From NCBI RefSeq assembly GCF_022750545.1, contig NZ_PUIC01000012.1:1-64000 (forward strand): a DNA stretch of 64,000 nt. The letters are read 5' to 3'. The translations under genes and the position numbers were made by a program. This DNA is from Caulobacter sp. CCUG 60055 (GTDB taxonomy: Bacteria > Pseudomonadota > Alphaproteobacteria > Caulobacterales > Caulobacteraceae). Shown piece by piece: positions 36,048-60,021 of the stretch. The notes under the pieces were generated by a model. The model did no database searches, was not told the origin of the DNA, and saw only the letters and a list, made by a program, of their open reading frames with translations. How positions within the stretch are numbered: the stretch's first letter is position 1; each line of letters begins with the position of its first letter.

Positions 36048-36069
36048 CCTCCGTTCCAGCGAGTTCCCG

Positions 36070-37323: not shown

Positions 37324-37335
37324 GGCCCGTCCTTC

Positions 37336-40547: not shown

Positions 40548-41073
40548 CCCTAGCGCCGTGGCGCACGCCCCTGGACTGTCGATCGCCGAAAGCCCGGTCG
40601 CGGTCAGCCTGCTGCGCGTGCGCTCGCCCGATACGGGCCTGACGACCGCGCTCGGCGACGCCTTCGGCCTGGAATGGCCGACGCGGCCCAACACCGTCGG
40701 CGAGGGGCGCGTCCGCGCGGCCTGGCTCGCGCCCGGCGAGTGGGCGCTGTTCGACGCCGCCGAGGTCCTGGCGGCGCCCGTGACGGCGGCGCTCGGCGAG
40801 CGGCTGCATCACCTTTCCGACGTGTCGGCCGGCCGCCGGCTGTGGCGGGTCGAAGGCGAGCGGGCGCGCGAGCTGCTGGCCAAGGGCTGCGGCCTCGACA
40901 TTCACCCGCGGAGCTTCCCGCCCGGCAGTTGCGCCCAGACCGTGCTGGCCCAGGTCGCGATCCTGCTGATCGCGCCCGGCGGCGACGGAGCCTTCTCGAT
41001 CATCGCCGACGCCACCCTGGCCGCCCACCTGCGGCTCTGGTTCGCCGAGGCCGTACAGGAATTCATCGCATGA
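40540..41073 (+). CDS. soxG: Sarcosine oxidase subunit gamma
   Basis: A 177-residue small subunit. LAPGEWALFD near residue 63, HLSDVSAGRRLWRVEG and the segment ELLAKGCGLDIHPRSFPPGS are the conserved gamma-subunit blocks. It overlaps soxA at its start by 8 bp and purU at its end by ATGA (41070-41073), so translation is coupled through the operon. Confidence 0.93.
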   Translation: MADPSAVAHAPGLSIAESPVAVSLLRVRSPDTGLTTALGDAFGLEWPTRPNTVGEGRVRAAWLAPGEWALFDAAEVLAAPVTAALGERLHHLSDVSAGRRLWRVEGERARELLAKGCGLDIHPRSFPPGSCAQTVLAQVAILLIAPGGDGAFSIIADATLAAHLRLWFAEAVQEFIA

Positions 41074-41957
41074 CCCTCGCCGCACCGCCCTCGCCCGCCG
41101 CGCCCTCCTACGTGCTGATCGTCCGCTGCCCCGACACCAGGGGCGTGGTCGCGGCGGTGTCCGGCTATCTGGCGGACCAGGGCTGCTCGATCACCGAATC
41201 CAGCCATTACAACGACGCCGCCACCGGGCGCTTCTTCATGCGCACCGTGTTCGTGCGCGAGGGCGCCGAGCCGCTGCTGGCGCTGGAGCCGTTCAAGGCC
41301 GGCTTCGCGGCGGTGGCGGACCGCTTCGACATCCAATGGTCGCTGCACGACCTGTCGGTCCGTCCGCGCGTGCTGATCGCGGTCTCCAAGTTCGGGCATT
41401 GCCTGTTCGACCTGCTGCATCGCTGGCGCTCGGGCTTGTTGCCGGTCGACATCATGGCCGTGGTGTCGAACCACGACGACATGCGCTCGTTCGTCGAGTG
41501 GAGCGGCGTGCCCTATCATCACCTGCCCGTCGACAAGGCCGACAAGGCGGCCCAGGAGGCGCGCCTGCTCGAACTGGTCGAGCGGCTCGACATCGAACTG
41601 GTCGTCCTCGCCCGCTACATGCAGATCCTGTCGCCGGCCCTGTGCGAGGCGCTGTCGGGACGGTGCATCAACATCCACCACTCCTTCCTGCCCAGCTTCA
41701 AGGGCGCGACGCCCTATCACCAGGCTCACGCCCGCGGGGTGAAGATCATCGGGGCCACCGCCCATTACGTGACCACCGATCTCGACGAGGGCCCGATCAT
41801 CGAACAGGGGGTCGAACGGGTGAGCCACGCCCACACGCCGGCCAACCTCGTCGGCATCGGCCGCGACATCGAATGCACGGTGCTGGCCCGCGCCGTCTCC
41901 TGGCACATCGAGCATCGGCTGGCGGTCAACGGCCAGCGCACCATAGTGTTCAGCTGA
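41070..41957 (+). CDS. purU: Formyltetrahydrofolate deformylase
   Basis: A 295-residue enzyme that hydrolyses 10-formyl-tetrahydrofolate to formate and tetrahydrofolate. An N-terminal ACT domain (about residues 12-85, VLIVRCPDTRGVVAAVSGYL) is followed by a formyltransferase-fold domain with the catalytic block INIHHSFLPSFKGATPYHQA and the Asp in TTDLDEGPI. It regenerates free folate for sarcosine oxidase, which loads C1 units onto it, explaining its place as the last gene of the operon. Confidence 0.94.
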   Translation: MTLAAPPSPAAPSYVLIVRCPDTRGVVAAVSGYLADQGCSITESSHYNDAATGRFFMRTVFVREGAEPLLALEPFKAGFAAVADRFDIQWSLHDLSVRPRVLIAVSKFGHCLFDLLHRWRSGLLPVDIMAVVSNHDDMRSFVEWSGVPYHHLPVDKADKAAQEARLLELVERLDIELVVLARYMQILSPALCEALSGRCINIHHSFLPSFKGATPYHQAHARGVKIIGATAHYVTTDLDEGPIIEQGVERVSHAHTPANLVGIGRDIECTVLARAVSWHIEHRLAVNGQRTIVFS

Positions 41958-42060
41958 GACAGCGCCCCGCGAAAGGCGCGCCGTAAGAGACAAAAATATT
42001 GCAAATTTGGAAAATCATGAAAAAAATTATCGGAACCTACGGGTGCGGGGGAGAAGCGCA

Positions 42061-42987
42061 ATGGATACAAAATGGATCGAGGACTTCCTGAGCCTCGCCG
42101 AGACCAAGAGCTTCACGCGGTCGTCGGAACTGCGCTTCACGACCCAGTCGGCGTTCAGCCGCCGCATCAAGGCCCTGGAGACCTGGGCCGGCGCCCAGCT
42201 GTTCGACCGCAGCCTCCAGCCCGTGGCCCTCACCGAGGCCGGCGAGGTGTTCCGCGACCACGCCGAGGATCTGATGCGCCGGCTGCGGACCACCCGCGAA
42301 ACCGTGATGCGGCAGTCGTCCCTGCAACAGGGCACGGTGTCGATCACCGCGCCGCACAGCCTGGCCACCGAATTCTTCCCCCCCTGGCTCAAGCGGATCA
42401 GCGAGAAGATCGGGCCGGTGAACACCCGGCTGCTGCCGTGCAGCTTTCCCGAAGGCGTGGCCCTGATGACCGACCGCGGCTGCGAATTCATGCTGACCTA
42501 TTGCAAGGACGACGCCTTGGTCGATCTCGGTCCAGGCGACTACGCCAGCTGCCTGATCGGCGCCGACGCCCTGGTCCCGCTGAGCGCTCCCGCCGAGGGC
42601 GGCGGCCCTCGCCACCGGGCGGACGCCCTTCGGCCCGCGCCGTTCCTGGGCTATGCGGCGACCTCGCGGTTCAGCGGCGCGGTCCAGGCGCTGCTCGACG
42701 CCCATGACGAGATCGAGGTGGAATCGCCGCCGACCTTCACCTCGCCCTACGCCAACATCCTGAGATCGATGGTGCTTCACGGGTACGGCTTCGCGTGGCT
42801 GCTGGAGAACGAGACCCGGGCCGAAGTCCAGGCCGGCGAACTGGTCCGGGCTGGACCGGCCGACTGGGACATCCCGCTCGAAATCCGGCTGTTCCGCCCG
42901 CGCAAGCCGATCTCGCGGGTCGGCGAAGAGGTCTGGAACGCCGCCGTCGCCCTCAGTCTCGGCCAAGGGGACGAGCGGCGGGCCTGA
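42061..42987 (+). CDS. LysR-family regulator
   Basis: A 308-residue LysR protein. The helix-turn-helix begins DTKWIEDFLSLAETKSFTRSS and includes FTTQSAFSRRIKALETWAG; the effector domain follows with GTVSITAPHSLATEFFPPWL. The start at 42061 has GGGGGAG upstream. The 103 bp before it are AT-rich (41985-42045) in a GC-rich genome and likely hold the promoter. It follows purU but is spaced from it, and converges on the peptidase remnant, so its targets could be either the sox genes or the minus-strand amino-acid cluster. Confidence 0.87.
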   Translation: MDTKWIEDFLSLAETKSFTRSSELRFTTQSAFSRRIKALETWAGAQLFDRSLQPVALTEAGEVFRDHAEDLMRRLRTTRETVMRQSSLQQGTVSITAPHSLATEFFPPWLKRISEKIGPVNTRLLPCSFPEGVALMTDRGCEFMLTYCKDDALVDLGPGDYASCLIGADALVPLSAPAEGGGPRHRADALRPAPFLGYAATSRFSGAVQALLDAHDEIEVESPPTFTSPYANILRSMVLHGYGFAWLLENETRAEVQAGELVRAGPADWDIPLEIRLFRPRKPISRVGEEVWNAAVALSLGQGDERRA

Positions 42988-43012: not shown

Positions 43013-43977
43013 TCACCAGATCCGCACCCGTTCGCCCGGATCGAGGAACAGCGACCGCCCCGACTTGACGTCGAAGCTGTCGTACCAGGCGTCGACATTG
43101 GGCACGACGCCGTTCACCCGGAACTGTCGCGGGGAATGCGGGTCGCTGACGATCCGGCGGCGCAGCGAATCCTCGCGCTGCTTGCCCCGCCAGGCCTGGG
43201 CGTAGCCCAGGAAGAAACGCTGGTCGCCGGTCAGGCCGTCCACCACCGGCGCGGGCGCCCCCTTCAGCGAGACGTGGTAGGCGTCGAGCGCCAGCAGCAC
43301 CCCGCCAAGGTCGGCGATGTTCTCGCCCAGGGTCAGTTGACCGTTCAGGCGCACGCCCGGCAGCGCCACGTAGGACGAATACTGCTTGGACAGCCTGGCG
43401 GCGCGGGCCTCGAAAGCGGCCGCGTCCTCGGCGGTCCACCAGTCGGCCAGCCGCCCGTCGCCGTCGTACTTGCGCCCCTCGTCGTCGAAGCCGTGGGTGA
43501 GCTCGTGGCCGATGACCGCGCCGATCGCGCCGTAATTGACCGCCGGGTCGGCCTCCGGGTCGAACAGCGGCGGCTGCAGGATGCCGGCCGGGAACACCAC
43601 CTCGTTGAGGATCGGGTCGCTATAGGCGTTGAAGGTCTGCGGCGTCAGGGTCCACTCGCCGCGGTCCACCGGCTTGTCGAGCAGCCCCACGGCGAACCGC
43701 CATTCGAACGCCGCCGCCCGCCTGACGTCGCCATAGAGGTCGTCTCGGCGGATGACCAGGGACCGATAATCGCGCGGGCGGTCCGGATAGCCGACATAGA
43801 CCGCCGTCTTGGACAGCTTCTCCAGGGCCCGCGCCTTGGTGGTCGGCGACATCCAGTCCAGCCGCTCGATGCGGGCCTTGAACGCCGCCTTCAGATCGTC
43901 GGCCAGGGCCTGGATGCGCTGCTTGGCGACCGGCGGGAAATACCGGGCGGCGACCGCGCAGGTCGCCCAGGGGTTCC
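43013..43977 (-). pseudogene. M13 metallopeptidase remnant, N-terminus missing
   Basis: About 320 codons match the C-terminal catalytic half of M13 (neprilysin/PepO-type) peptidases: RYFPPVAKQRIQALADDLK, DWMSPTTKARALEKLSK, AGILQPPLFDP, the zinc site GHELTHGFDDEG and the third ligand motif GENIADLGG, ending in RVRIW. Full family members have about 690 residues, so more than half is absent. The homology begins within a few codons of the stop of the upstream oxidase gene, and there is no start codon or ribosome binding site at the junction; the frame simply continues into the oxidase gene in another register. A deletion that joined the two genes is the simplest explanation. The catalytic residues themselves are intact. 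Confidence 0.75.
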
Positions 43978-45108
43978 TCAGCCGAACCGGCTCGGGCTCA
44001 GCGCCGCCGGGTCGAGGCCGAAGGCGTCCATCTCGCTGGGCGGGCCGGCGTTGAGGATCGACATGGCCACGAACCGGCCCAGCGCCGGCGCGGTCTGCAC
44101 GCCATAGCCGCCCTGCCCCACCGACCAGAACAGGCCCGCGACGTCCGGATCGGGTCCGGCCACGATGGTCCGGTCGGGCGCGAAGGTCCTGAGGCCGGCC
44201 CAGCTGCGCCTGACCCGCGACACCTCGATGGTTGTCGCGGTCTGCAGGCGGTCGGCGGCGACAGCGATGTCGTATTCGTCGGCGTAGGCGTCGTGCGGCG
44301 CCACCGGGGTTTCGTCGGCCGGCGAGCACAGCAGCCGCCCGGCCTCCGGCTTGAAATAGAAGCTCTCGTCGATGTCCATCACGATCGGCCAGCGGGAGAC
44401 GTCCCGCCCTTCGGGCGCATCGACGATGATCGCGGTGCGCCGCAACGGATTGAGGCCGACCGGCCGCGCGCCGCAGCGGGCGGCGACCAGGTCGCCCCAG
44501 GCTCCGGCGGCGTTGATCAGCCAGCCGCAGGACAGCGTCCTGTCCGCCGCCCGCAGCCGCCAGGCCGACCCGACGCGTTGCGCGGCCTGCAGCTCGGCCT
44601 CGAAATAGATCTCGCCGCCCCGCCGCCGCAGCCCGCGAAGATAGCCCTGGAGCAGCGCGTCGACGTCGATCTCCAACGCTTTCGGATCGTAGAGGCTGCC
44701 GGAGGCGAACTCGGGACGCAGCACCGGCGCCCGCGCCATCGCCGTCTCGGCGTCGTCGCGGACATAGGCCGTGCCCTGCTCCGAGAGCGTGGCGGCCAGG
44801 GCGTCGACAGCCTCGGCCCGGCCGGGGGCGGCGATGAACAGGATGCCCCGGTCGCTGACCAGCGGCGTCGGCGCGAAGCCCTCCGGCGGGTTGGTGTAGA
44901 AATCGAAGCTCGCCCGGGTCAGCGCCCGGGCGGAGGCGTCGCCGTAACCCTCGATATAGCTCGCCGCCGACCGGCCGGTGCTGTGATAGCCGGCGTGCGC
45001 CTCGCGCTCCAGCAAGGCCACCCTGCCGTGGGCGGACAGCGACCAGGCGATCGACGCGCCGGCCACGCCGCCGCCGATGACGACGAAATCGAAAACCGAG
45101 TCAGACAC
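43978..45108 (-). CDS. FAD-dependent amino-acid oxidoreductase (DAO family)
   Basis: A 376-residue flavoprotein. The FAD-binding fold FDFVVIGGGVAGASIAWSLS is near residues 6-25; HSTGRSAASYIEGYG, DPKALEIDVDALLQGYL, LINAAGAWGDLVA and VGQGGYGVQTAPALG are the usual DAO blocks. Members of this group oxidise glycine, sarcosine, D-amino acids or related imino acids; the exact substrate is not evident. It lies 36 bp after the dipeptidase gene in the minus-strand amino-acid cluster, so a D-amino acid freed from peptides is a reasonable guess. Confidence 0.85.
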   Translation of the reverse strand: MSDSVFDFVVIGGGVAGASIAWSLSAHGRVALLEREAHAGYHSTGRSAASYIEGYGDASARALTRASFDFYTNPPEGFAPTPLVSDRGILFIAAPGRAEAVDALAATLSEQGTAYVRDDAETAMARAPVLRPEFASGSLYDPKALEIDVDALLQGYLRGLRRRGGEIYFEAELQAAQRVGSAWRLRAADRTLSCGWLINAAGAWGDLVAARCGARPVGLNPLRRTAIIVDAPEGRDVSRWPIVMDIDESFYFKPEAGRLLCSPADETPVAPHDAYADEYDIAVAADRLQTATTIEVSRVRRSWAGLRTFAPDRTIVAGPDPDVAGLFWSVGQGGYGVQTAPALGRFVAMSILNAGPPSEMDAFGLDPAALSPSRFG

Positions 45109-45144
45109 GGCTGGAGACTCCCTTGAGACGGCGGCCCCAGCCGC

Positions 45145-46152
45145 TCACACCCAGACTTGGCGCGCCACGCGCCAAAGATTGCCGCCGAGGACGCCGCGCA
45201 CATCGTCCTCGGCGTAGCCGCGACGCAGCAGCTCTTCGGTCACCTCGGGCAGGCGCTCGGGCGCCATGAACGCGATGTCCTGCTGGTACCCCCCCTCGGG
45301 CGGCCACAGCGCCGCGCTCTGGGCGATGATCCCGCCCAGGCCTTCCTGGTCGAACACGTAGTCCAGCCCCACGCCGACGTGCGCGGCGCCGACACGCTGG
45401 ACCACATGGTCGATATGGTCGACGAAGGTCTTCACGCTGGCGTCGTTGGCACCCAGGAAGATGCCGATGCCGTTGATGCAGACCACGCCGCCGATACGCG
45501 CGCACGCGTCGACGAGCTCGTCGGGGATGTTGCGCGGATGGTCCCTCAGCGCCCTTGGGTTCGAATGCGAGAACACCACCGGCTTGTCGGTGTTGTTCAT
45601 CACGTCCATCGCCGTGCGATAGCCGGTGTGGGTGCAGCACTTGAGCATGCCGACCCGGTCCATCTCCTCGACCACGCGGCGGCCGAAGGGGGTCAGGCCG
45701 CCGTCGACCGCGTCATGGCAACCCGAACCCACATTGTTGGCGATGTTGTAGACCATCGCCATCCAGCGGACGCCGAGCTCGTAGTAGAGTTCGATCAGGC
45801 TGAGGTTGTCGCCGATGGAGAACGCCCCCTCGACGTCGAAGAAGATGGCCAGCTTGCCGGCGGCCTTGGCCTCCAGGATCGCCGCGGCCGTCCCGACCAG
45901 GACGTAGCGGTCGGGATGCTGCTTCACGTGCGCGCGCAGCCTGGCGACGTTGTGGATCAGCTCTTCCAGCGGAACGTGGCTGTCGCCGATGTTGACGCCC
46001 GCCACGTCGACCCCGGCGCGCCGGTAGCGGTCGAGGTCGTCGAGCCAGCGGTCCGGCGCCTCCATCGGCAGGCATCCGTGATTGTCCCAGACCAGCGCGT
46101 TCGCGTGAAGGTCGGCGGGGCCCGTCCGGCTCGCGCGATCAAGAGCATCCAT
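45145..46152 (-). CDS. M19-family (membrane-type) dipeptidase
   Basis: A 335-residue zinc dipeptidase of the renal dipeptidase family, with the amidohydrolase fold. WDNHGCLPM gives a shifted form of the metal-binding HxD strand (here DNH), FDVEGAFSI carries the bridging Glu, KCCTHTGYR and VVFSHSNPRAL carry the zinc His residues, and HVGVGLDYVFD the late Asp. No signal peptide is seen, so it may be cytoplasmic. Enzymes of this family accept L,D and L,L dipeptides. The ATG at 46152 has GGGGA 8 bases upstream; an in-frame TTG lies 12 codons earlier. Confidence 0.88.
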   Translation of the reverse strand: MDALDRASRTGPADLHANALVWDNHGCLPMEAPDRWLDDLDRYRRAGVDVAGVNIGDSHVPLEELIHNVARLRAHVKQHPDRYVLVGTAAAILEAKAAGKLAIFFDVEGAFSIGDNLSLIELYYELGVRWMAMVYNIANNVGSGCHDAVDGGLTPFGRRVVEEMDRVGMLKCCTHTGYRTAMDVMNNTDKPVVFSHSNPRALRDHPRNIPDELVDACARIGGVVCINGIGIFLGANDASVKTFVDHIDHVVQRVGAAHVGVGLDYVFDQEGLGGIIAQSAALWPPEGGYQQDIAFMAPERLPEVTEELLRRGYAEDDVRGVLGGNLWRVARQVWV

Positions 46153-46211
46153 GGATCCATTCCCCAAAAACCGAAGGTCAGTGGTCAAGTTCTAGATCCG
46201 CCCAATGCGAA

Positions 46212-46229
46212 AATACATTCTTGTATCGT
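46212..46229 (-). promoter_or_regulatory. Operator candidate matching the sox site
   Basis: On the minus strand this reads ACGATACA-N4-TGTATT, identical at all 14 fixed positions to 36030-36047 in the sox promoter, and in the same orientation to transcription. It lies 60 bp upstream of the dipeptidase start, in the 101-bp gap after the ornithine-cyclodeaminase-like gene. Confidence 0.5.
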
Positions 46230-46253
46230 CATGCGACGACCATCCCGGCGGCC

Positions 46254-47216
46254 TCAGGACAGATCGAGCGTCTGGACCGACCCTTCGGCCTGCGCCCGCT
46301 CCAGCGCCAGGGCGCAGATCGCCAGGTCCTGCAGCGCGACGCCGGAACTGTCGTAGATGGTGATCTCTTCATCGCCGCAGCGCCCGGGCAGCCGTCCCGA
46401 GATCAGACCGCCGATGGGCTGGACGCCGCCGGCCAGCGCGGCGGGCAGCCGCTGGAATTCCCCGATGACGATCGACTGGGTCGGCAGGTCGGCCCACAGC
46501 GACGCGCCGAGCAGCAGGGCCGGGTCGAGTTCCTGCTTGCCGACGCCGTCGGCGCCCATCGCCGAGAGGTGCGTCCCGGGACGCACGTCCCCGGCCGCGA
46601 ACAGGGCGCTCCGCGAAGCGGTCGCTGTCGAGACGATGTCGGCGCGGGCCAGGGCCGGCCGCAGGTCCGACGCCTGGGCGGGCAGTCCCGCCGTCCGCAG
46701 GCGGGCGGCCAGAGCCTCGGCCGCGCTCGCCTCGCGCGCCCAGACCAGCACCTGCTCCAGCTTGCGCACTTCGGCGACGGCCAGGGCGTCCCAATAGGCC
46801 TGATGCCCAGCGCCGACCACCGCCAGGACGGAGGCGTCCTTCCGGGCCAGATGCTTCACCGCCACCGCGTCCGAGGCGGCCGTGCGCAGAGCGGTCAGGT
46901 GCGTCGCCGCGACCAGGGCGCGCGGCGCGCCGGTGTCGTCGTCGAGCAGCAGGGTCGTCGAGGCGTGGTTGCCCAGTCCCCTTTCGACGTTGCGGGGCCA
47001 GTAGGACCCGACCTTCAGTCCCGGCGTCCGGCGCTCGCCGTCATAGCCGAGCTTGGCGCCGAACCGGGTGGCGGGATCGCTGCCATGCCCGGCGACGAAC
47101 GGAAACAGACGCGACTCGCCGCGGTCCAGCGAAGCGAACGCGGATTCCATCAGGGCGATGGCGTCCTTGAGCGTGACCAGCCGCGCGGCGACGGTTTCAC
47201 TGACGGCCAGGATCAT
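46254..47216 (-). CDS. Ornithine cyclodeaminase / mu-crystallin family protein
   Basis: A 320-residue NAD(P)-dependent enzyme. The conserved front part KLGYDGERRTPGLKVGSYWP is followed by LTALRTAASDAVAVKHLA and the dinucleotide fold VLAVVGAGHQAYWDALAV near residues 130-147; later blocks are ADIVSTATAS and GTHLSAMGADGVGKQELD. The family includes ornithine cyclodeaminase, ketimine reductases, alanine dehydrogenase and iminosuccinate reductase, so the reaction is not fixed. It overlaps the peptide transporter stop by ATGA (47216-47213). Confidence 0.85.
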   Translation of the reverse strand: MILAVSETVAARLVTLKDAIALMESAFASLDRGESRLFPFVAGHGSDPATRFGAKLGYDGERRTPGLKVGSYWPRNVERGLGNHASTTLLLDDDTGAPRALVAATHLTALRTAASDAVAVKHLARKDASVLAVVGAGHQAYWDALAVAEVRKLEQVLVWAREASAAEALAARLRTAGLPAQASDLRPALARADIVSTATASRSALFAAGDVRPGTHLSAMGADGVGKQELDPALLLGASLWADLPTQSIVIGEFQRLPAALAGGVQPIGGLISGRLPGRCGDEEITIYDSSGVALQDLAICALALERAQAEGSVQTLDLS

Positions 47217-48562
47217 GCAGACGCCTCTTGTTGGATCGTGACGGGATCGGGACCGGCGTCCCGGCAGAAGGAATGGTCGATCAGCCGCGCGGGCCGGTCG
47301 AACAGCAACAGGATCGACGAGGCCCCGCCGGCCAGGATGGCCAGCAGCAGGAAGAACAGCTCGTGGCCGATCACGCCCCACAGCGTGCCGATGACCCCGG
47401 CGAGCAGGTTGCCGAGGAAGGAGGCGAAGAACCAGAGGGCGATGGTCGTCGCCCCCATCCCGGCCGGCGCCAGCCGCCCGAACAGGCCGAGCCCCACCGG
47501 CAGGATGAACAGCTCGGCCGTGGTGAACACCAGGATGAACAGCGCCGCCCATATCCAGCTGACGCGGGCGCCGTCGGCCAGGGCGCAGATGCCGGCCAGC
47601 AGCAGGAAGGCCACGGCCATCAGGGCGGCGCCGGTCACCATCTTCGTCAACGGCGACAGGTCGCGCTTGCGCGCGGCCGCGCGCGTCCACCACGTCACCA
47701 GGATCGGCGTCAGCAGCAGCACCAGCAGCGGGTCGAACGACTGGAACCAGGTCGCCGGAATGGCCAGCTCGCCCAGGCCGACGCGGCGGTCGACCGCCTG
47801 GTCGATCCACAGGGCCAGGGTGTTGCCGCCCTGGCCGTAGGGGATGCGGAACACCACCACCGCCGCCGCGATGCCGCCCAGCAGCAGGAACCGGCGCAGC
47901 AGCCCCTCGGGCGGACGGTCGCCTCCGGCGCCGGCCCCCAGGCGCTCGGCCCTGGACGGCTCGGGAGGAAGGTGCCGGCGGCCCAGGATGTAGACGCCGA
48001 GGCCGATCATCATGCCGATCCCGGCCGCGCCGAACCCCCAGTGCCAGCCATAGAGCTCACCGAGCGTGCCGCAGATCAGCGGCGCCAGGAACGCGCCCAG
48101 GTTTATGCCGACATAGTAGACGCTGTAGGCCGAGCCGGTGCGGGGATCGCCCGGCGGATAGAGCCCTTTGATCTGGCTCGGCAGGCTGGGCAGGAAGAAG
48201 CCGTTGCCCAGCGCGATCACCGCCAGCGCCGGATAGAGCAGCGCCTCGGACGCCATCATGAAATGGCCGACCGCCATGATCGACCCGCCGAGGATCACCG
48301 CCTTGCGCCGGCCCAGCCAGCGGTCCGAAATCGCGCCGCCGAAGATGGGCGTGAAATAGACGAACGCCGTATAGAGGCCGTAGACCATGGACGCTTGCTG
48401 CTGGCTCATCAGCAGCTGCTTGGTCATGTAATAGACCAGCAGCGCCCGCATCCCGTAGAACGAGAAGATCTCCCACATCTCGGTCAGGAAAAGGACCATC
48501 AGTCCTTTCGGATGACCGAACCAGGCCCTATCGCCCGACCGGGCGGCTAGGCGCTCAGACAT
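47213..48562 (-). CDS. POT-family peptide transporter
   Basis: A 449-residue major-facilitator protein of the proton-dependent oligopeptide transporter group, with about twelve helices. EMWEIFSFYGMRALLVYYM is the first-helix signature, slightly changed from the usual ExxERFxYYG, and GSAYSVYYVGINLGAFLAPL is the PTR2 motif. It likely brings di- or tripeptides into the cell for the neighbouring dipeptidase. It overlaps the upstream DgcN-like gene by 16 bp and the downstream enzyme by ATGA. Confidence 0.87.
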   Translation of the reverse strand: MSERLAARSGDRAWFGHPKGLMVLFLTEMWEIFSFYGMRALLVYYMTKQLLMSQQQASMVYGLYTAFVYFTPIFGGAISDRWLGRRKAVILGGSIMAVGHFMMASEALLYPALAVIALGNGFFLPSLPSQIKGLYPPGDPRTGSAYSVYYVGINLGAFLAPLICGTLGELYGWHWGFGAAGIGMMIGLGVYILGRRHLPPEPSRAERLGAGAGGDRPPEGLLRRFLLLGGIAAAVVVFRIPYGQGGNTLALWIDQAVDRRVGLGELAIPATWFQSFDPLLVLLLTPILVTWWTRAAARKRDLSPLTKMVTGAALMAVAFLLLAGICALADGARVSWIWAALFILVFTTAELFILPVGLGLFGRLAPAGMGATTIALWFFASFLGNLLAGVIGTLWGVIGHELFFLLLAILAGGASSILLLFDRPARLIDHSFCRDAGPDPVTIQQEASA

Positions 48563-49563
48563 GCATCCACCAGGCGCTCGAACTCGGCCCCGCCGCGGAT
48601 CGGGTCGGCGCAGGGCAGGCCGAGGCGGACGCCCTCGTCATGAAGCACGGCGGCGGCCTCGGTCGGCGACAGCCGGGCGGTGTTGAGGCTGATCCCCGCG
48701 CAGCGAACCGCCGGATTGGTGCGGCGCGCCATCAGCAGATGGGTCTCGATCGCCTCGGCGAGGCTGGGGACGGCGAAGTCCGGATAGCCCGACATCCGGT
48801 CGCGGCCGACCTTGTGGCAGACGACGATGACGTCCGGCTGGCTGCCGTGCAGCAGGCCCAGCGACACCCCGGCGTAGGCCGGATGGAAAAGCGACCCCTG
48901 CCCCTCGATGACGTCCCAATGGTCGGCGGCGGCGTCGGGCGAGAGGCTCTCGGCGGCGCCGGCGACGAAATCGGCGACCACCGCGTCCATCGGCAGGCCC
49001 GAGCCGGCGATCAGTATGCCCGTCTGTCCCGTCGCCCTGAAGTCGGCGTCGAGGCCGCGCGCGGCGAAGGCCCGCGCCAGGGCCAGGGCCGTATACTTCT
49101 TGCCGAGGGCGCAATCGGTGCCGACGGTCAACAGGCGCTTGCCGGACCGCTTGCGGCCGGTGCCGACCGGCAGGCCCGCCGGCGGCCGGCGCACGTCGAT
49201 CAGCCGGCGCCCGAGCCGGGCCGCCGCGCTGCGCAGCACGGGAATGTCGCCGAGGGCGGCGTGCATGCCGCTGACGATGTCCAGCCCGGCCTCCAGCGCC
49301 TGGACCAGCGCCGGAATCCAGGCGTCCGAAAGACCGCCGCCATCCACGGCGACGCCGATCACCAGGGCGCGCGCGCCCTGGGCCTGGGCCTCTTCGGGCG
49401 ACAGGACCGGCAGGCCCAGGGTCACCTTGCAGTCGGGCAAGGCGAATTCGCCGAGCACGCGGTCCGCAGCCCAGTCGCGCAGGCCGAACGCCGTCTTGGC
49501 GTCCGACGGCGTCTGCGCGTCGGCCAGGAAGAGCAGATAAGGATACGGCAGGACCAGGCTCAC
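48547..49563 (-). CDS. dgcN: DUF1611 protein, DgcN-like D-glutamate N-acetyltransferase
   Basis: A 338-residue protein of the DUF1611 family, with a Rossmann-like N-terminal part and a P-loop-type C-terminal domain: TVGTDCALGKKYTALALA near residue 146 and later FRATGQTGILIAGSG, VIEGQGSLFHPAYAG and GYPDFAVPSL. A member of this family, DgcN, was shown to acetylate D-glutamate, after which the enolase-superfamily racemase DgcA converts it to the L form. A DgcA-like gene lies four genes upstream here, which supports the assignment, although the exact substrate may differ. Confidence 0.75.
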   Translation of the reverse strand: MSLVLPYPYLLFLADAQTPSDAKTAFGLRDWAADRVLGEFALPDCKVTLGLPVLSPEEAQAQGARALVIGVAVDGGGLSDAWIPALVQALEAGLDIVSGMHAALGDIPVLRSAAARLGRRLIDVRRPPAGLPVGTGRKRSGKRLLTVGTDCALGKKYTALALARAFAARGLDADFRATGQTGILIAGSGLPMDAVVADFVAGAAESLSPDAAADHWDVIEGQGSLFHPAYAGVSLGLLHGSQPDVIVVCHKVGRDRMSGYPDFAVPSLAEAIETHLLMARRTNPAVRCAGISLNTARLSPTEAAAVLHDEGVRLGLPCADPIRGGAEFERLVDACLSA

Positions 49564-49633
49564 GACGTCGCTCCACGAACTCTCGACGGGACAGGCCCCT
49601 CGCCGGGGCCGGGCTGGGCCGGGACGCGCGGGC

Positions 49634-50608
49634 TCATCGCGCCGCGTCCTGCCAGGGCAGTTGGTCGAGATCGACGTTGCCGCCGGTGAGGATGACCCCG
49701 ACCTTGCGGCCCCGGGCCTCGAAGCGGCCTTCGAGCAGGGCGGCGACCGGCACCGCGCTGCTGGGCTCGATGACCACCTTCAGCACCTCCCAGACCAGCC
49801 GCATCGCCGACACGATCGCGGTCTCCGGAACCGTGGCGAAGTCGTCGAGCAGGGCCCTCAGGATGACGAAGCCGTTCTCGCCCAGCGTGGTGCGCAGCCC
49901 GTCGGCGATGGTGTTCGGCGGGTCGCCGGCCGTGCGCACGCCGCTGCGCCAGGAGCGCCAGGCGTCGTCGGCCTGCTCGGGCTCGCTGGCCCAGAGCCGA
50001 GCCTGGGCGCCCGAGCCCCGCACCGCCACCGAGGTTCCCGACATCAGCCCGCCGCCGCCGACCGGCGCGACGACGGCGTCGAGATCCGGGACCTCGGCCA
50101 GCAGCTCCAGCGCCGCCGTCCCCTGCCCGGCGATGACCTTGAGGTCGTCATAGGGATGGACCAGGGTGGCGCCGCGCTCGGCCACGATGGCGGCGGCGGC
50201 GGCCTCGCGCGCGGCGGTGGTCGGCGCGCAGAACTCGATCTCGCCGCCCAGGCGACGGACGGACTCCACCTTGGCCTTGGGCGCGTTGGACGGCATGACG
50301 ATGTAGGCGCGCGCGCCGCGGTTGCCGGCGGCCAAGCTGAGGGCGGCGGCGTGGTTGCCCGACGAATGCGTGACCACCCCGCGCGCGGCCTCCTCGTCGC
50401 TCAGCGAGAACACCGCGTTGTGCGCGCCCCGCGCCTTGAAGGCGCCGATGCGCTGCAGGTTCTCGCACTTGAAGAACACCTCGCAGCCCAGGATCGCGTT
50501 CAGCCGGTGCGAGGTCAGCACCGGGGTGCGATGCACGAACGGCGCGATGCGCGCGGCGGCGGCTTCGATATCGGCGAAGGTGACGGGAAGGCTGCTCAGA
50601 TCACGCAC
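49634..50608 (-). CDS. PLP-dependent threonine/serine dehydratase-like enzyme
   Basis: A 324-residue fold-type II PLP enzyme. The Schiff-base Lys is at residue 58 in RIGAFKARGAHNAV; SSGNHAAALSLAA and the phosphate-binding loop VGGGGLMSGTS follow, and ILTGGNVDLDQLP is the conserved C-terminus. It lacks the regulatory ACT domain of IlvA, so it resembles catabolic threonine dehydratases, serine racemases and hydroxyaspartate dehydratases (including EutB and BhcB). The start codon is GTG with a weak ribosome site. It lies 70 bp upstream of the DgcN-like gene. Confidence 0.85.
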   Translation of the reverse strand: MRDLSSLPVTFADIEAAAARIAPFVHRTPVLTSHRLNAILGCEVFFKCENLQRIGAFKARGAHNAVFSLSDEEAARGVVTHSSGNHAAALSLAAGNRGARAYIVMPSNAPKAKVESVRRLGGEIEFCAPTTAAREAAAAAIVAERGATLVHPYDDLKVIAGQGTAALELLAEVPDLDAVVAPVGGGGLMSGTSVAVRGSGAQARLWASEPEQADDAWRSWRSGVRTAGDPPNTIADGLRTTLGENGFVILRALLDDFATVPETAIVSAMRLVWEVLKVVIEPSSAVPVAALLEGRFEARGRKVGVILTGGNVDLDQLPWQDAAR

Positions 50609-50787
50609 GGGCGAGGCTCACTTCTGTCGATTTGTCGCGATGGAATGGTCCGGCCGGAACCGCGGACGAAACCGTCGGGCCATAGCCCTTAGAGACGATC
50701 CGCGACGGCCCGCCCCTACCCGCGCCGCGCCGCAATTCTGGCGCTTCGCCCCCCGGGCGGGCCTTGCGGGCGCCCCGCCGGGAGGGG

Positions 50788-52227
50788 TCAGATCGCCCGG
50801 ACACGATAAATCCTCCCGTCCCGCGCATAGGCGAAGGCCATGTGCTCCACGCGGTCGGCGTAGACGCAGCGATAGCGCCGGACATGGCCGCCGCCGTCCT
50901 CGTCGAACGCCTCCACCAGGTTCAGGTCGAGCAGGCCGGCGGCGGTCCGGTCGGGCGGAGCCGCCTTTTCGCCCGCCGGCCGCCCCAGCAAGCAGGCGAT
51001 CTCGGGCGCGAACCGGCCGGGATCGAGCGGCCGGCCGCCGCGCAGCAGCATGGCCCTGGCCTCGGCGGCGAGCGCCGGGTCCGGATCGCGCATGGGGACC
51101 AGCGAGATCGCCGTCGAGCCCGGCGCGAAGCCTTCGGCCGCCTCGTGGGCGATCCGCGCCACGGCCGCCCGGGCGCGCTCGCTCTGAACATTGGCCGTCA
51201 CCACCACCCCAAGGCGCTCGGACGGGATGCGCAGATAGAAGGCCATGAACCCTGGAACGCTGCCGGCGTGATAGTGGACCTCGCGCCCCCGCACCCGATC
51301 GAGCCGCCACCCGAAGCCGTAGGCGCAGTTGCGCCCGGTCTTCAGCAGCACCGGCGTGGTCATCGTCCGCAGGGGAACGGCCGGCGCCGCCTCGCCCCTC
51401 TGCAGGCCCGCCTCCCAGCGGGCCGCGTCCCGGGCCGAGATCAGCATCCCGCCGTCGGGCCAGCCCGAGAAATCGGAATCCATCGTCATCGCCCGCCGCA
51501 GCACGCCGTCGGCCAGCACATGCGGTTCGGCCCGGCCCGGTATGATCGCCGAGGCGTCGTCGACGCGCGCCTCGCGCAGCCGGGCCGGCGCCAGCAACTC
51601 CTGGGCGACCACCTCGCGATAGGGCCGCCCGCAGACGTCGGCGATCAGATAGCCGAGCAGGACATAGCCGGTGTTGGAATAGGACCACGCCTCGCCCGGC
51701 GCGAAATCGACCGCCAGGCCTCCCATCCGCGCCAGGAACATCTCGCGGCAGACCGGCTTGTCGCCCTCGAAGCCCGCGAGCGCCTCGTATTCCGGCGCGC
51801 CGGCGGTATGGGACAACAGGGCGCTGATCGGCAGACCGGCCAGCGACGGCGGCAGGCCGCGCGCATAGTCCCCGACCGCGTCGCCCAGCCGGATGCGCCC
51901 GGCCGCCGCCAGCCTCAGCACCAGCGCGGCGGTGAAGTGTTTCGACGCCGACCCCAGGTGGAACAGGGTCCTCGGCGTGGCGGCGACGCCGAACGGCGGC
52001 GAGGCGAGCCCCAGCCCCTCGACCGCCGCTGGAACCCCGTTGCGGACGACGGCGACAGCGACGGCGGGCAGCCGGCCGGCCTCCATCCGAGCCTGGACGG
52101 CGCGGCGGAGCGGCGGCGGCAGGCCGATCCGTCCCGATCCGGCCGCGATCGCCGGAGACGCGCCGAGCGCGGCGGCCCCGGCCACGCCCAGGCCGACCAT
52201 GGCGCGTCGCGAGGGGCGGCCGGTCAC
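50788..52227 (-). CDS. Beta-lactamase-fold serine hydrolase (class C related)
   Basis: A 479-residue exported hydrolase. The N-terminus RPSRRAMVGLGVAGAAALG looks like a Tat-type signal, with cleavage near AIA at residue 28. The SxxK motif is SASK (Ser93, Lys96), the YxN motif is YSN in AWSYSNTGYVLLGYL, and HAG replaces the KTG triad, as is usual in D-aminopeptidase and esterase relatives. A C-terminal domain of about 110 residues follows. Periplasmic cleavage of D-residue peptides or amides would fit the cluster, but beta-lactamase or esterase activity cannot be excluded. It starts 3 bp after the DgcA-like stop. Confidence 0.83.
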   Translation of the reverse strand: MTGRPSRRAMVGLGVAGAAALGASPAIAAGSGRIGLPPPLRRAVQARMEAGRLPAVAVAVVRNGVPAAVEGLGLASPPFGVAATPRTLFHLGSASKHFTAALVLRLAAAGRIRLGDAVGDYARGLPPSLAGLPISALLSHTAGAPEYEALAGFEGDKPVCREMFLARMGGLAVDFAPGEAWSYSNTGYVLLGYLIADVCGRPYREVVAQELLAPARLREARVDDASAIIPGRAEPHVLADGVLRRAMTMDSDFSGWPDGGMLISARDAARWEAGLQRGEAAPAVPLRTMTTPVLLKTGRNCAYGFGWRLDRVRGREVHYHAGSVPGFMAFYLRIPSERLGVVVTANVQSERARAAVARIAHEAAEGFAPGSTAISLVPMRDPDPALAAEARAMLLRGGRPLDPGRFAPEIACLLGRPAGEKAAPPDRTAAGLLDLNLVEAFDEDGGGHVRRYRCVYADRVEHMAFAYARDGRIYRVRAI

Positions 52228-52230
52228 GGG

Positions 52231-53253
52231 TCAGCGATCCGCGACGGCCGGGTCGCCCCAGGCCTCGGGCGGGCAGCGGACGCAGCCGTCCTCGTAGATC
52301 GTCGCCGGGGTCCGGTCCGAAGACAGCTCCATCGGCCCGTCGAGATCGACGATGTCGCAGAGCTGGCCGACCACGAAGGCCGGGGCCATGGCCAGCACGG
52401 TGCCGCACATGTTGCCGACCATGACCTTGAGGCCGAGGCGGCGGGACTCGCGGACCATGTCCAGCGCCTCGGTGAGCCCGCCGCACTTGTCGAGCTTGAT
52501 GTTGATGACGTCGACCCGCCCGACCAAGCCGGCGATGTCGCCGCCGTCCTGGACGCTCTCGTCGGCGGCGATCGGGATCGGCGAGGCCAGGCCGTCGAGC
52601 CAGTCGTCGCGGTCGAGGGGAAACGGCTGCTCCAGCAGCTTGACCCCGGTTTCGACCAGACAGGGCGCCAGCCGCGCGAAGCTGTCGCGATCCAGGCCCT
52701 GGTTGGCGTCGACGCCGAGCCAGACGTCGGGGCGCGCCGCCCTCACCCGCCGCACGCGTTCGCCGTCGACGGCGTCGCCGGTCAGCTTCAGCTTCAAGGC
52801 CCGCGCGCCGGCGAAACGCCGCGCCTTGGCCGCCATCACCTCCGGATCATCGGCGCCGACGGTGTAGGTGGTCAGAAGCGGCCGGGACGCCTCCAGGCCG
52901 GCGAGCGCCCAGACCGGACGACCGACGCGCTTGGCCTCCAGGTCCCACAGGGCGCAGTCCAAGGCGTTGCGGGCGCCGCCCGGCGGCAGCAGGCCGCGAA
53001 GGTCCTCGCGGTCGAGGCCCGCCTCGATCCGCTCGCGCAGGGCCTCGATCTGGGCGACCATGGCCGCCGGGTCGTCCCCTCGGTAATAGACCCCGGCCGC
53101 CTCGCCGCGCCCCACATGGGCGCCGTCGCTCAGGGCGACCACGACCACGTCGATGTCGACGAAGGTGTAGCCGGATATCCGGAACGGCTTGGTGAACGGC
53201 CAGTTCTCGACCCCGACCTCAAGGCGGACAGGCCGCCTGACATTCTCACTCAA
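52231..53253 (-). CDS. dgcA: Enolase-superfamily racemase, DgcA-like
   Basis: A 340-residue member of the muconate-lactonising / dipeptide epimerase group. Catalytic residues are all visible: KxK at 154-156 (LKLKL), metal ligands Asp182 (VDANQG), Glu208 (LEQPF) and Asp231 (ADES), and the second base Lys253 (INIKLDKCGG). Such enzymes epimerise Ala-Glu dipeptides or, for DgcA, racemise N-acetyl-D-glutamate. The presence of a DUF1611/DgcN-like gene in the same run favours the latter. The TTG at 53253 gives the usual length and has AGGAG nine bases upstream. Confidence 0.8.
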   Translation of the reverse strand: MSENVRRPVRLEVGVENWPFTKPFRISGYTFVDIDVVVVALSDGAHVGRGEAAGVYYRGDDPAAMVAQIEALRERIEAGLDREDLRGLLPPGGARNALDCALWDLEAKRVGRPVWALAGLEASRPLLTTYTVGADDPEVMAAKARRFAGARALKLKLTGDAVDGERVRRVRAARPDVWLGVDANQGLDRDSFARLAPCLVETGVKLLEQPFPLDRDDWLDGLASPIPIAADESVQDGGDIAGLVGRVDVINIKLDKCGGLTEALDMVRESRRLGLKVMVGNMCGTVLAMAPAFVVGQLCDIVDLDGPMELSSDRTPATIYEDGCVRCPPEAWGDPAVADR

Positions 53254-53284: not shown

Positions 53285-53956
53285 TCAGGGTCTGGCGAGC
53301 CGGCGGCGCGGCGGCGCGGCGGCTTGTCCGGGCCCATGCTCGAACTCGGCGGCGAGTTGCGCCTTGCCGGCCGCGAGGTGCTTTTCGATGGCGTGCACCG
53401 TCACGCCCATGCGCCGGCCGGCTTCGGCGTGGGAGAGCTTCTCGAACCGGCAGAGCATGAGGGCCTCGCGCCGGCGCGGCGGCATCCGCGCGATGATCGC
53501 CAAGGCCGCCCGCAGTTGCTGCGCGGCGATCAGAGCCCGCTCTGCGCCCGGCGTCGGATCGGGCGCGTCGGCGTCCTCCAGGCCGTAGTCCAGAACGCGC
53601 TTGCGGCGGGCTCTCGATCTGAAGCGGTCGGTCAGGGTGTTTCGCGTCGCCTGAAGCAGGAAACAGGTCGGGTCGAGGATCTCGACCCTCAGCCCCGCCT
53701 GCAGGGTCTTGACCACGGCGTCGTGCATCAGGTCGGCGGCCTCGTCGGCGCCGCCGCAGCCGGCCAACTTGAGCAGCTTCTCCCTGCGGTCGCGATAGAC
53801 CTCGTCCAGCCGGCTCGACAGCGAACCGCGCTCCCCGGCCGGGGCGTGGCGACGAACCGCGCCGTGCTCGTCGTCCGCGCCGACCCGGTCGGCGCCGAGG
53901 GTCTCCCGGTCGAGCCCGGCCGGCGCGAGCTGGCGCGCCTGCCCCCGCCCCATCAT
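53285..53956 (-). CDS. ECF-type RNA polymerase sigma factor
   Basis: A small sigma-70-family protein of about 223 residues. Region 2 is seen around LMHDAVVKTLQAG and CFLLQATRNTLTDRFRSRARR; region 4 around RMPPRRREALMLCRFEKLSHAEAGRRMGV and HAIEKHLAAG. It resembles FecI-type factors. ATG 53956 has GAGG upstream; a GTG at 53974 is an alternative, and the first 45 or so residues have no sigma homology. No FecR-type anti-sigma or dedicated receptor gene is adjacent, which is unusual for this class. It is 31 bp upstream of the DgcA-like gene and may be co-transcribed with it. Confidence 0.82.
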   Translation of the reverse strand: MMGRGQARQLAPAGLDRETLGADRVGADDEHGAVRRHAPAGERGSLSSRLDEVYRDRREKLLKLAGCGGADEAADLMHDAVVKTLQAGLRVEILDPTCFLLQATRNTLTDRFRSRARRKRVLDYGLEDADAPDPTPGAERALIAAQQLRAALAIIARMPPRRREALMLCRFEKLSHAEAGRRMGVTVHAIEKHLAAGKAQLAAEFEHGPGQAAAPPRRRLARP

Positions 53957-54159
53957 CGGGACGGACCTCGACACGCCCGGCGGGCCGCCAAGACCAGTCC
54001 CGGCCGCGGACCCGCGGCGATGGTCGCCGGGGCGATAAACGGCCAGCTCTTCCAGGTCATCGGCGAACTCTTGCTGTCGGGTTCCGGACTAAGCGGCGAC
54101 CCTACGCAGGCGGCGCGGAGGCGCCCAATGCTGAGATCGGCGCAAGTCAGACCGAACTC

Positions 54160-55713
54160 TCATAGGCCCGACGACGGCGGCGGCGGAAACGACGGCCGCT
54201 TGAACGCCGGCGCCGGCAGCGAGGCGTTCACCGGCAGCGCCTGGACGTCCCCGGTCTTGAGGAAGGCGACGACGGCGTCGGTGACGGCCGGCTGCTGCTC
54301 CAGCAGCGCCGCCCGCGCGCCATGGCCGCCCCGGTGCACCAGGACCGTCCGGCTGTTGGGGAAATAGGGCAGCATGTTCAGCGTGTTCTCGACCGGGGTC
54401 GAGGTGTCCCAGTCGCCGTTGACGAACAGCACAGGCGTCCGGTTCAGGACCGGCGTGCGGAAGGCGTCGCCGACGTCCGGGCTCGGCCAGACGCCGGCCT
54501 TGCGCGAGGCGATGTAGGCGTCGAAGTCCCACCATCCCATCGCCGCCACGCCGGCGTCGGTCCGCAGCAGGTGCTCGCGCGCGGGGGTCACGCCCAGGCT
54601 GGTGTCGATCAGCGGCCCGATCAGCGCGTCGCGCTCGTCGCTGGCCCGGCGCTGGGCCGCCACCGCGCGGGCCCAGTCGTCGTAGCGGCCGTGATAGGCC
54701 GACAGCACCAGGGCCGGCCAGTCGGCGGCCGGGGTCAGCATGGCGCGCTGGAAATCCTCGCGGCCGAGCGCCACGGTCGACATCCGCCCGGTCTTGTCGT
54801 CCTTGATCCGCACCCTGACCGGAGCCTTGGCCAGCCGGCGCTGGACCGCGCCGACGGCGGCCATCACCCCGCCGTTGGGCAGGTAGGGCCGCAGGCCGGG
54901 ATCATGGTCGGCGTCCCAAGCGATCCGCTGGAGCGCGGCGTAGATGTGCGAGGGCATGTCGTAGGCGTAGTCCAGCGGCTCCACGCCCGAGAGCAGCGCC
55001 CGCGCGACGATCTCCGGCCGCCGCCGCATGACGGCGAAGCTCCATTGCGAGCCGAAGCTCTGGCCCACCAGTGTGATCTGGCCGTATCCCAGCGCCTGCC
55101 TGAGGTCGTTCACGTCCTCGACGCATTGCAGCACGGTGTAGCCCGACAGGTCCTTGTCGGCGTTGGCCGCGACGGCGGCCTTGAAGATCTTCAGGTTCTC
55201 GGCCGTGTCGGCGGCCAGGGAGGCCGGCCGGTCCAGGGGCAGGTCGCGGGGCCGGCCGACGAAGCCCAGCACCTCGCCCCGCCGCGAATAGCCGCGCTGG
55301 TCGATGACGACGACGTCGCCGGCCCGGCTGAGCTGGAGCAGTTGCGCCTGCTGGCGGCGGGCGCGGTCGGTGGTCTCGGAGAAGGCGCCGAGATAGCTGT
55401 CGCCCGGCCCGCCCGGCAGGACGAACATCGGCGGGGCCCCGGTCGGCTCGGCCGGACGCAGGCGGGCGAAGCCGACGGCGATGATCCGGCTGGTCTTGGC
55501 GTCGCGGTTCTCGGGCACGAAGACGGCGCCGATCTCGTAGCGCACCTGGCGTCCGTCGGCTGCGGTCAGCACCTTGGTCTCGCTGACGACCTCGCCGGCC
55601 TTGCGCTGCTCGGCGGCGGAAACGGCCGGCGCGGCCGCCAGAACGGCGAGCGCGGCGAAGGCCAGAGCAGCACGCCCCAGCCGCCCCACGGCGAGGTGAC
55701 GAGATATCCACAT
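54160..55713 (-). CDS. Exported alpha/beta hydrolase, S33 aminopeptidase-like
   Basis: A 517-residue secreted hydrolase. The signal peptide ends at VSAA near residue 33. FVLPGGPGDSYLG carries the oxyanion GGPG motif typical of proline iminopeptidase and tripeptidyl aminopeptidase relatives. The nucleophile is in LVGQSFGSQWSF, the acid in FVNGDWDTSTPVE, and the His in VHRGGHGARA. A large lid region separates the Ser and Asp motifs. The C-terminus is Pro-rich. The start has a strong GGAGGAG site. It probably trims peptides in the periplasm, but an esterase role is possible. Confidence 0.83.
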   Translation of the reverse strand: MWISRHLAVGRLGRAALAFAALAVLAAAPAVSAAEQRKAGEVVSETKVLTAADGRQVRYEIGAVFVPENRDAKTSRIIAVGFARLRPAEPTGAPPMFVLPGGPGDSYLGAFSETTDRARRQQAQLLQLSRAGDVVVIDQRGYSRRGEVLGFVGRPRDLPLDRPASLAADTAENLKIFKAAVAANADKDLSGYTVLQCVEDVNDLRQALGYGQITLVGQSFGSQWSFAVMRRRPEIVARALLSGVEPLDYAYDMPSHIYAALQRIAWDADHDPGLRPYLPNGGVMAAVGAVQRRLAKAPVRVRIKDDKTGRMSTVALGREDFQRAMLTPAADWPALVLSAYHGRYDDWARAVAAQRRASDERDALIGPLIDTSLGVTPAREHLLRTDAGVAAMGWWDFDAYIASRKAGVWPSPDVGDAFRTPVLNRTPVLFVNGDWDTSTPVENTLNMLPYFPNSRTVLVHRGGHGARAALLEQQPAVTDAVVAFLKTGDVQALPVNASLPAPAFKRPSFPPPPSSGL

Positions 55714-55849
55714 GGCGACGCTCCTCCGGCGACGGGCGTCGTCTTGTCGCGCGCCCGGTTCTGGAGACGCTCGTCGCGCGCCCGACCCTACCTGCGCGGA
55801 TCGGGGGATCGTCGCGAGACCAGCGCCCTCGGCGACGGGAACGTCCCGG

Positions 55850-59986: not shown

Positions 59987-60021
59987 GGTTCGGTCCTGGT
60001 TCAACAAAGGTCCCCCTGCGC

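Follow-up and report, generated by a model that had tools for sequence, protein, structure and literature searches.

An eight-gene run of Caulobacter sp. CCUG 60055 as a candidate operon for the catabolism of small D-amino-acid peptides

Two reports describe D-amino acids as an important component of the recalcitrant organic matter found in the deep sea (PMC12363236, PMC10845958). The subject of this work is a run of eight minus-strand genes at positions 43978-53253 of a stretch of 64,000 nucleotides from Caulobacter sp. CCUG 60055 (contig NZ_PUIC01000012.1, positions 1 to 64,000; hereafter the window), whose products share families with several described systems. The DgcN-DgcA D-glutamate pathway, reportedly described by Yu et al. 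in ISME J in 2023, pairs a protein of the DUF1611 family with a racemase of the enolase superfamily, and the run encodes one protein of each family. The run's pair differs from the named proteins in model scores, clade and two arginines of DgcA. Five NCBI-named dgcN loci, viewed over 4-6 kb on each side, have no annotated S12, POT or M19 gene, all of which are families of the run; in Sphingobium a TonB receptor and an amidohydrolase are nearby, and in Pantoea an ABC transporter.

The DauA-DauB system of Pseudomonas aeruginosa inverts D-arginine to L-arginine (PMC5619798). The run likewise combines a DauA-family flavin adenine dinucleotide (FAD) enzyme (46% identity) with a reductase of the OCD family, but the former lacks Glu87, His48 and Thr50 of DauA, and the latter is BhcD-like. 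We take DauB itself to belong to the OCD family. With the beta-hydroxyaspartate cycle (bhcABCD) the run shares a PALP protein and an OCD protein that are, among curated models, nearest to BhcB and BhcD respectively; however, both fall under the model cut-offs and the run has neither bhcA nor bhcC, whereas Aminobacter pAA03 carries all four genes. The microcystin genes mlrB and mlrD are alike by description only, in that a similar serine hydrolase and a transporter of the POT family (presumably that of MlrD) act on a natural peptide with D-residues. MlrB has been modelled on penicillin-recognising enzymes (PMC11070527).

The remaining comparison is with a locus that recurs in other genomes and contains S12, dipeptide epimerase, POT, TonB receptor, DUF1611 and second S12 genes. 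Its DgcN-like and DgcA-like proteins fall into the same two clades as those of the run, and the S12, POT and M19 families are common to both; the run differs in adding PALP, OCD and DAO genes and in lacking the TonB receptor, YkvI and XRE genes. No name for this locus was found in the open-access literature (a weak negative), and none of the open-access titles or abstract beginnings listed describes the gene combination or the locus. Judging by which genes are present and in what order, by their motifs and clades and by the neighbours that recur, we consider it fairly probable that the run serves as an operon for the catabolism of small D-amino-acid peptides; it would be the form that a widespread D-peptide locus takes in Caulobacterales, with an oxidation-reduction module added. 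All of the biochemistry proposed below is drawn from homology and context.

The eight frames were identified from an open reading frame list and from Pfam and NCBIfam matches, and belong to the families that an earlier note on this DNA had named. In the direction of transcription they encode a DgcA-like or dipeptide-epimerase-like protein of the enolase superfamily (MR_MLE; 52231-53253; NCBIfam racemase_DgcA, PF13378), an S12 beta-lactamase-fold serine hydrolase (50788-52227; PF00144, E 2.4e-54), a PALP protein, that is a pyridoxal phosphate (PLP) enzyme of the serine racemase/BhcB group (49634-50608; NCBIfam BhcB best match), a DgcN-like DUF1611 protein (48547-49563; PF07755, PF17396), a POT/PTR2 family peptide:H+ symporter (47213-48562; TIGR00924, PF00854), an OCD/mu-crystallin family reductase (46254-47216; PF02423), an M19 dipeptidase-family protein of the 'WDxHxC' subgroup (45145-46188; PF01244, E 4.4e-80) and a DauA-like FAD-dependent D-amino-acid dehydrogenase/oxidase of the DAO family (43978-45108; Pfam, NCBIfam and PDB matches). 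The DgcA-like frame is open to 53337, and a TTG at codon 29 places its start at 53253, the end given in the earlier note. The coordinates give gaps of 3 bp between the DgcA-like and S12 genes, 179 bp between S12 and PALP, 70 bp between PALP and DgcN-like, 65 bp between OCD and M19 and 36 bp between M19 and DAO; the DgcN-like and POT genes overlap by 16 bp, and POT and OCD by 4 bp (OCD ATG at 47216). Because of these short gaps and overlaps, all eight genes are likely to form a single operon. A scan for promoters and terminators was uninformative, with no promoter-like site (0.3 expected) and five terminator-like sites (2.8 expected). Seven of the frames were also chosen by a simple gene picker, with GC contents at third codon positions of 0.89-0.94. 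At the eighth, OCD, the picker took a short plus-strand frame instead, and the call of this gene therefore rests on homology.

To place the run we used the surroundings of its DgcN relatives in other genomes. The 80 best of 488 relatives were taken and the 74 loci of at least 14 kb were counted, the 6 shorter ones being left out; neighbours were scored by tblastn at 1e-10 within about 10 kb of DgcN. The hosts are mostly Sphingomonadales, Lysobacteraceae and Steroidobacteraceae; among the remainder are two metagenome-assembled genomes labelled Verrucomicrobiota. A frequent order is XRE<, S12a>, DgcA>, POT and/or M19>, TonB receptor>, DgcN>, YkvI>, S12b>, and Sphingopyxis loci such as L011 have a different one. 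S12a was present at 68 of the 74 loci, DgcA at 67, the XRE regulator at 62, YkvI at 60, the TonB receptor at 51 and S12b at 50, followed by an N-acyl-D-amino-acid-deacylase-like protein (37), POT (30), M19a (24), M19b (20) and an amidohydrolase (15). Any S12 gene was found at 71 loci and POT or M19 at 53; DgcA occurred together with S12 at 65, with POT or M19 in addition at 48, and with the TonB receptor as well at 40. Most matches share their strand with DgcN (DgcA 68/70, YkvI 59/60, POT 30/31, TonB 48/52, S12b 48/51, S12a 75/85, M19a 21/26, M19b 18/20, deacylase-like 33/43) and those of XRE mostly do not (16/65), which fits operons with a divergent regulator. The names 'YkvI' and 'N-acyl-D-amino-acid-deacylase-like' are ones that we assume to apply: at the thresholds used, the former protein was matched by neither Pfam nor NCBIfam, and the latter matches general amidohydrolase models. 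On three annotated plasmids, of Sphingobium, Croceicoccus and Novosphingobium, the recurrent locus carries generic names only. In the M19a members that were aligned, 9 out of 21 (a cluster with, for example, L005, L006, L010 and L013), three metal ligands are lost, so these proteins may not be dipeptidases and possibly have a non-hydrolytic role. The S12 and M19 proteins of the run are only 24-38% identical to their counterparts in the recurrent locus.

The recurrent locus supports the use of D-peptides, and to that extent the route for D-peptide uptake and breakdown put forward in the earlier note is supported: relatives of the DgcN-like protein are repeatedly linked to S12, TonB, POT and M19 genes (n=74), and partial parallels exist in Variovorax and Phyllobacterium. 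The specificity for D-glutamate that the note attached to this route is doubtful. Several observations weigh against reading the whole run as one D-peptide operon. PALP is present at 2 of the 74 loci, OCD at 1 and DAO at none, which rules out the eight genes as a conserved unit, a point that the earlier note had suggested checking. Given this near-absence, the tie of DAO, OCD and PALP to the rest consists of adjacency in one genome and two partial parallels. Conversely, no TonB receptor, YkvI protein or XRE regulator was found between 39001 and 59000 of the window, and its M19 protein has a changed metal ligand (Asp to Cys). At the five loci of nearer relatives (L106-L110), S12a, XRE and TonB were found three times each, and DgcA, POT, YkvI, S12b, M19b and the deacylase-like protein once each. 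None of the run's other genes was seen in two of three M19 contexts on plasmids (Rahnella, Novosphingobium), in one of two DAO contexts (Azospirillum) or in 12 genomic M19 loci of 4-20 kb. As a contrast to the 74 loci, 11 loci with other DgcN types, among them L116 (DgcN at the base of the run's clade) and L105 (from the same genome as the window), had DgcA at 11, TonB at 4, S12a and the deacylase-like protein at 3 each, XRE at 2, POT, S12b and DAO at 1 each and YkvI and M19 at none. This comparison counts in favour of the D-peptide reading but is a rough one, as the recurrent loci themselves supplied the queries and the contrast loci are from other organisms, so that taxonomy is confounded, and random loci of the same genomes were not included.

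These observations also bear on the possibility that the run is a patchwork of laterally acquired pieces with no common pathway, in which the M19 protein and the oxidase may have other functions. Elsewhere the run recurs only in part, it ends at a truncated M13 peptidase gene, and an OCD copy on another contig of the genome has decayed; sarcosine-oxidase-like genes lie 3-8 kb away, and by eye the M19 relative in L218 is likewise near such genes. On the other hand, the eight frames are intact, tightly packed and in one direction, a role in peptide or amino-acid metabolism suits each of the eight families, and a Variovorax plasmid independently combines S12, M19 and DAO. We regard a patchwork as improbable.

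The earlier note had D-glutamate as the substrate, with import of D-glutamate-containing peptides such as muropeptides followed by conversion of D-glutamate to N-acetyl-D-glutamate by DgcN, to N-acetyl-L-glutamate by DgcA, and on to L-glutamate. Both proteins of the run clearly belong to the DgcN and DgcA families, broadly defined, and genes for peptide uptake and cleavage adjoin them. The best PDB match of the DgcN-like protein is 7xrj (E 1.1e-104), and its P-loop is present; DUF1611 is still listed by Pfam as of unknown function. For the DgcA-like protein the best match is 4gfi (E 7.5e-75), and YcjG (1jpd) matches at E 1.7e-58. Nevertheless, the DgcN-like protein scores 454.1 bits with NCBIfam DgcN (NF041892; cut-off 480) and the DgcA-like protein 370.3 bits with racemase_DgcA (NF042940; cut-off 400), or 370.7 from the start at 53253, while four NCBI-named pairs used as controls pass with 506.9-551.4 and 413.7-507.9. 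The NCBIfam model for L-Ala-D/L-Glu epimerase gave the DgcA-like protein 231.9 against a cut-off of 343. The cut-offs are narrowly missed, and all nine other DgcN or DgcA relatives scanned miss them too, including a second pair in the same genome (477.1, 380.2); the DgcN score of L112 is 464.7 and those of three recurrent-locus relatives are 445.3-447.9. The missed cut-off alone is therefore a weak argument.

Trees and motifs separate the proteins further. In quick trees, whose rows were mostly picked by similarity to the run's proteins, which favours such separation, the DgcN-like protein falls in a clade of 94 rows (Shimodaira-Hasegawa-like approximate likelihood ratio test (SH-aLRT) 98) without 7xrj, the NCBI-named dgcN products or the second copy of the same genome, and the DgcA-like protein in a clade of 75 rows (SH-aLRT 99) without the four NCBI-named DgcA proteins or the second copy. 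In the DgcN tree the protein of G040, a genome of the same family as the host, is identical to the one from L055, an uncultured member of the Caulobacterales. For the motif comparison, from which rows of uncertain placement were kept out on both sides, there were 91 DgcN rows of the run's type (among them the run's own, its duplicate L182, and L107 and L055, which are identical to each other) and eight reference DgcA rows (four NCBI-named, one unannotated near-copy and three unnamed relatives). Only six DgcN positions separate the two groups by the thresholds used. In DgcA, the motif P[YT][PA]RY is present in 8/8 reference rows and in 0/75 of the run's type. Residue 56 is Arg in all eight reference rows and Gly in 74/75 rows of the run's type; residue 85 is Arg in all eight and Tyr in 73/75. 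The second DgcA copy of the genome is intermediate, with Arg at the first position and Tyr at the second. In the alignment from the PDB search, residue 56 falls on residue 24 of the YcjG chain, an arginine that we take to be a ligand of the Glu side chain of the substrate. The run's protein has G56, GVYY, MVGNM and DANQ, and it keeps DLDGP. The last of these, which presumably binds the amino group of a dipeptide, is found in 71/75 rows of the run's type and also in all eight reference rows, so it cannot separate epimerase from DgcA activity.

Strict membership of DgcN and DgcA was thus ruled out by the scores, the separate clades and the loss of the DgcA arginines. Because two arginines are lost in its clade, D-glutamate is a doubtful substrate for the run's pair, and the conversion to L-glutamate through the N-acetyl form is weakened as a reading of the run. 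No gene of the run encodes an obvious N-acetyl-L-glutamate deacetylase, and no search for one was made in the rest of the genome. The earlier note had staked its proposal on membership of the characterised clades and on co-conservation of the genes, and what we found is largely the opposite of both. We consider the D-glutamate route possible but unlikely.

The S12 protein has as best PDB match the alkaline D-peptidase 4y7p (E 1.7e-29) and as best NCBIfam match D-aminopeptidase, at 88.8 bits against a cut-off of 443. Its SxxK, YxN and HxG motifs are all present, as SASK, YSN and HAG, and its N-terminus, judged by eye, is like a twin-arginine translocation (Tat) signal, with a twin arginine and an Ala/Gly-rich stretch. 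The POT protein passes its model (TIGR00924, 268.3 bits, cut-off 130.2). The M19 protein (best PDB match 2i5g) has Cys in place of Asp22 of renal dipeptidase and keeps the other four of the five metal ligands, numbered on a stretch of the human protein. In its subgroup 'WDxHxC' replaces the usual His-x-Asp, with the Cys form in close relatives and other letters in a few; a signal peptide is not apparent by eye.

The DAO protein is closest in the PDB to DauA (3nyc, E 2.6e-93), with 169 of 365 aligned residues identical. It keeps R222, R305, Y249, Y53 and G332 of DauA and has the changes E87 to I, H48 to S and T50 to I. R222 and R305 are, we assume, the carboxylate-binding residues and Glu87 the one that binds the guanidinium of D-arginine; the homology and the two arginines are thus as in DauA, and Glu87 is not. 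The OCD protein has iminosuccinate reductase 6rqa as best PDB match (E 2.6e-61), and the PALP protein carries SSGNH and the Arg of an 'AREA' motif that are common to BhcB-type rows and a serine racemase. Together with the NCBIfam matches, for which BhcD and BhcB are the best, these features raise the possibility that PALP makes iminosuccinate from 3-hydroxyaspartate and OCD reduces it to L-aspartate, the operon then serving the use of peptides with hydroxyaspartate and D-residues, for example peptide siderophores. Such siderophores can carry hydroxyaspartate. PALP, POT and OCD are also together, OCD as a remnant, on contig C20 of the genome. However, both proteins are well under the cut-offs (PALP 437.6 against 550 for BhcB, OCD 284.7 against 500 for BhcD), which rules out strict BhcB and BhcD membership; no BhcC-grade aldolase was found in the genome (best match 306.1, cut-off 690); and among the plasmid records listed, unnamed OCD proteins come closer to the OCD protein of the run (best 47.7%) than named BhcD does (about 41-43%). 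A hydroxyaspartate branch is in our view unlikely, with some real chance of being right. In all three neighbourhoods of unnamed OCD proteins that were read, FAD oxidoreductase genes lie within 6 kb, a point in favour of the D-peptide operon. At 11 OCD-centred loci PALP was found nine times and XRE once. Close PALP relatives are otherwise rare: with a threshold of E 1e-80 they occur in 3 of 398 genomes from the order, one of them the host's own, and the two relatives from the same order have none of the run's other genes in their 20 kb.

Returning to the D-peptide operon, the gene set suggests the following order of events. The exported S12 hydrolase would trim peptides in the periplasm, the POT symporter would import di- and tripeptides, and the cytoplasmic M19 protein would cleave the dipeptides. 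The D-residues would then be inverted or deaminated by two routes, acetylation-racemisation and oxidation-reduction. In the first, the DUF1611/DgcN-like protein would N-acetylate a D-amino acid and the DgcA-like protein would racemise the N-acyl product, or it would epimerise an L,D-dipeptide; the side chain handled is probably different from that of the named DgcA substrate. In the second, the DauA-like flavoenzyme would oxidise a D-amino acid to the imino acid and the OCD protein would reduce this to the L-amino acid. The PLP enzyme of the BhcB/serine-racemase type may deaminate serine-like or 3-hydroxyaspartate-like residues, and any iminosuccinate that it produced could also feed the OCD reductase. 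The operon proposed here and the alternatives to it overlap in part.

Once DauA has made the imine, certain Rid proteins can remove the amino group, which leaves a keto acid that DauB converts to L-arginine (PMC5619798). Since Rid and DauB act in this way on the DauA product, the analogy suggests that the OCD protein would do the work of both by reducing the imine directly. More tentatively, and at present we would call it possible but rather doubtful as a whole, a distinct DUF1611-DgcA branch may invert non-glutamate D-residues, N-acetylated or in dipeptides, within a widespread and undescribed D-peptide system that reaches from the TonB receptor to the cytoplasm; the operon described here would add a second route, in which imino acid from the DauA-like oxidase or the PLP enzyme is captured by OCD, where the sister locus on contig C2 has a Rid-like protein, of the imine-hydrolase family. 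Through its recurrent neighbourhood the DUF1611/'dipeptide epimerase' branch, which NCBI names generically in the plasmids read, acquires a concrete role that can be tested, and this neighbourhood warns that a D-glutamate annotation should not spread to the branch. If both inversion routes are real, a single operon would allow one to ask how bacteria divide D-residues between acetylation-racemisation and oxidation-reduction.

Related loci are present elsewhere in the same genome. On contig C2 (L105, 7010-12331) there are a DauA-like DAO (50%, tblastn), an XRE-type regulator (44%), a DgcN (63%) and a DgcA (44%), together with the Rid-like protein (63.7 bits, under the TIGR00004 cut-off of 106.25). 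Contig C20 (L153, L230/L231) carries TonB receptors (29%, 31%), S12 proteins, amidohydrolases, YkvI (58%), two PALP proteins (33% and about 80-81%), POT (62%), the OCD remnant, an M55 D-aminopeptidase, an XRE protein (27%) and a DgcA-like protein (41%). It is a second, larger D-peptide-like locus. As PALP, POT and OCD recur there, the three are together at least twice.

Partial parallels were also found on plasmids. A Variovorax plasmid has an S12 protein, a DauA-like DAO (48%), an MFS transporter and an XRE regulator beside S12 (34%), M19 (49%) and RidA, and a Phyllobacterium plasmid has a DAO (about 50%), an XRE regulator, a D,D-dipeptide ABC transporter and an amino acid deaminase. These two contexts, one of three for M19 and one of two for DAO, look like D-peptide loci.

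The run is bordered at its 3′ end by the truncated gene of an M13 (neprilysin-type) peptidase (43013-43951, minus strand), which adjoins the 3′ end of DAO and serves as a boundary marker, not as a working part. Its PF01431 domain is complete, and of PF05649 only positions 326-381 of 381 are left, nearly all of the N-terminal domain being gone; this looks like a rearrangement boundary. Beyond it, on the opposite strand, lies a LysR-type regulator (42007-42987, plus strand; PF00126, PF03466) with a putative link to the run. Just upstream of the run is a gene for a sigma factor of the extracytoplasmic function (ECF) type (53285-53974, minus strand; Sigma70_r4_2, TIGR02937), whose regulatory role is likewise putative. 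The sarcosine-oxidase-like genes, with a formyltetrahydrofolate-deformylase-like one, occupy 36009-41957 on the plus strand (by eye). On the other side, a TAP-like alpha/beta hydrolase frame (54160-56058, minus strand) is by eye like one beside the YkvI gene on C20. Further on, a long frame (60022-63999, minus strand) is open and carries a DUF3739 domain of the filamentous-haemagglutinin type; it adjoins a SapC-family gene (59210-60025).

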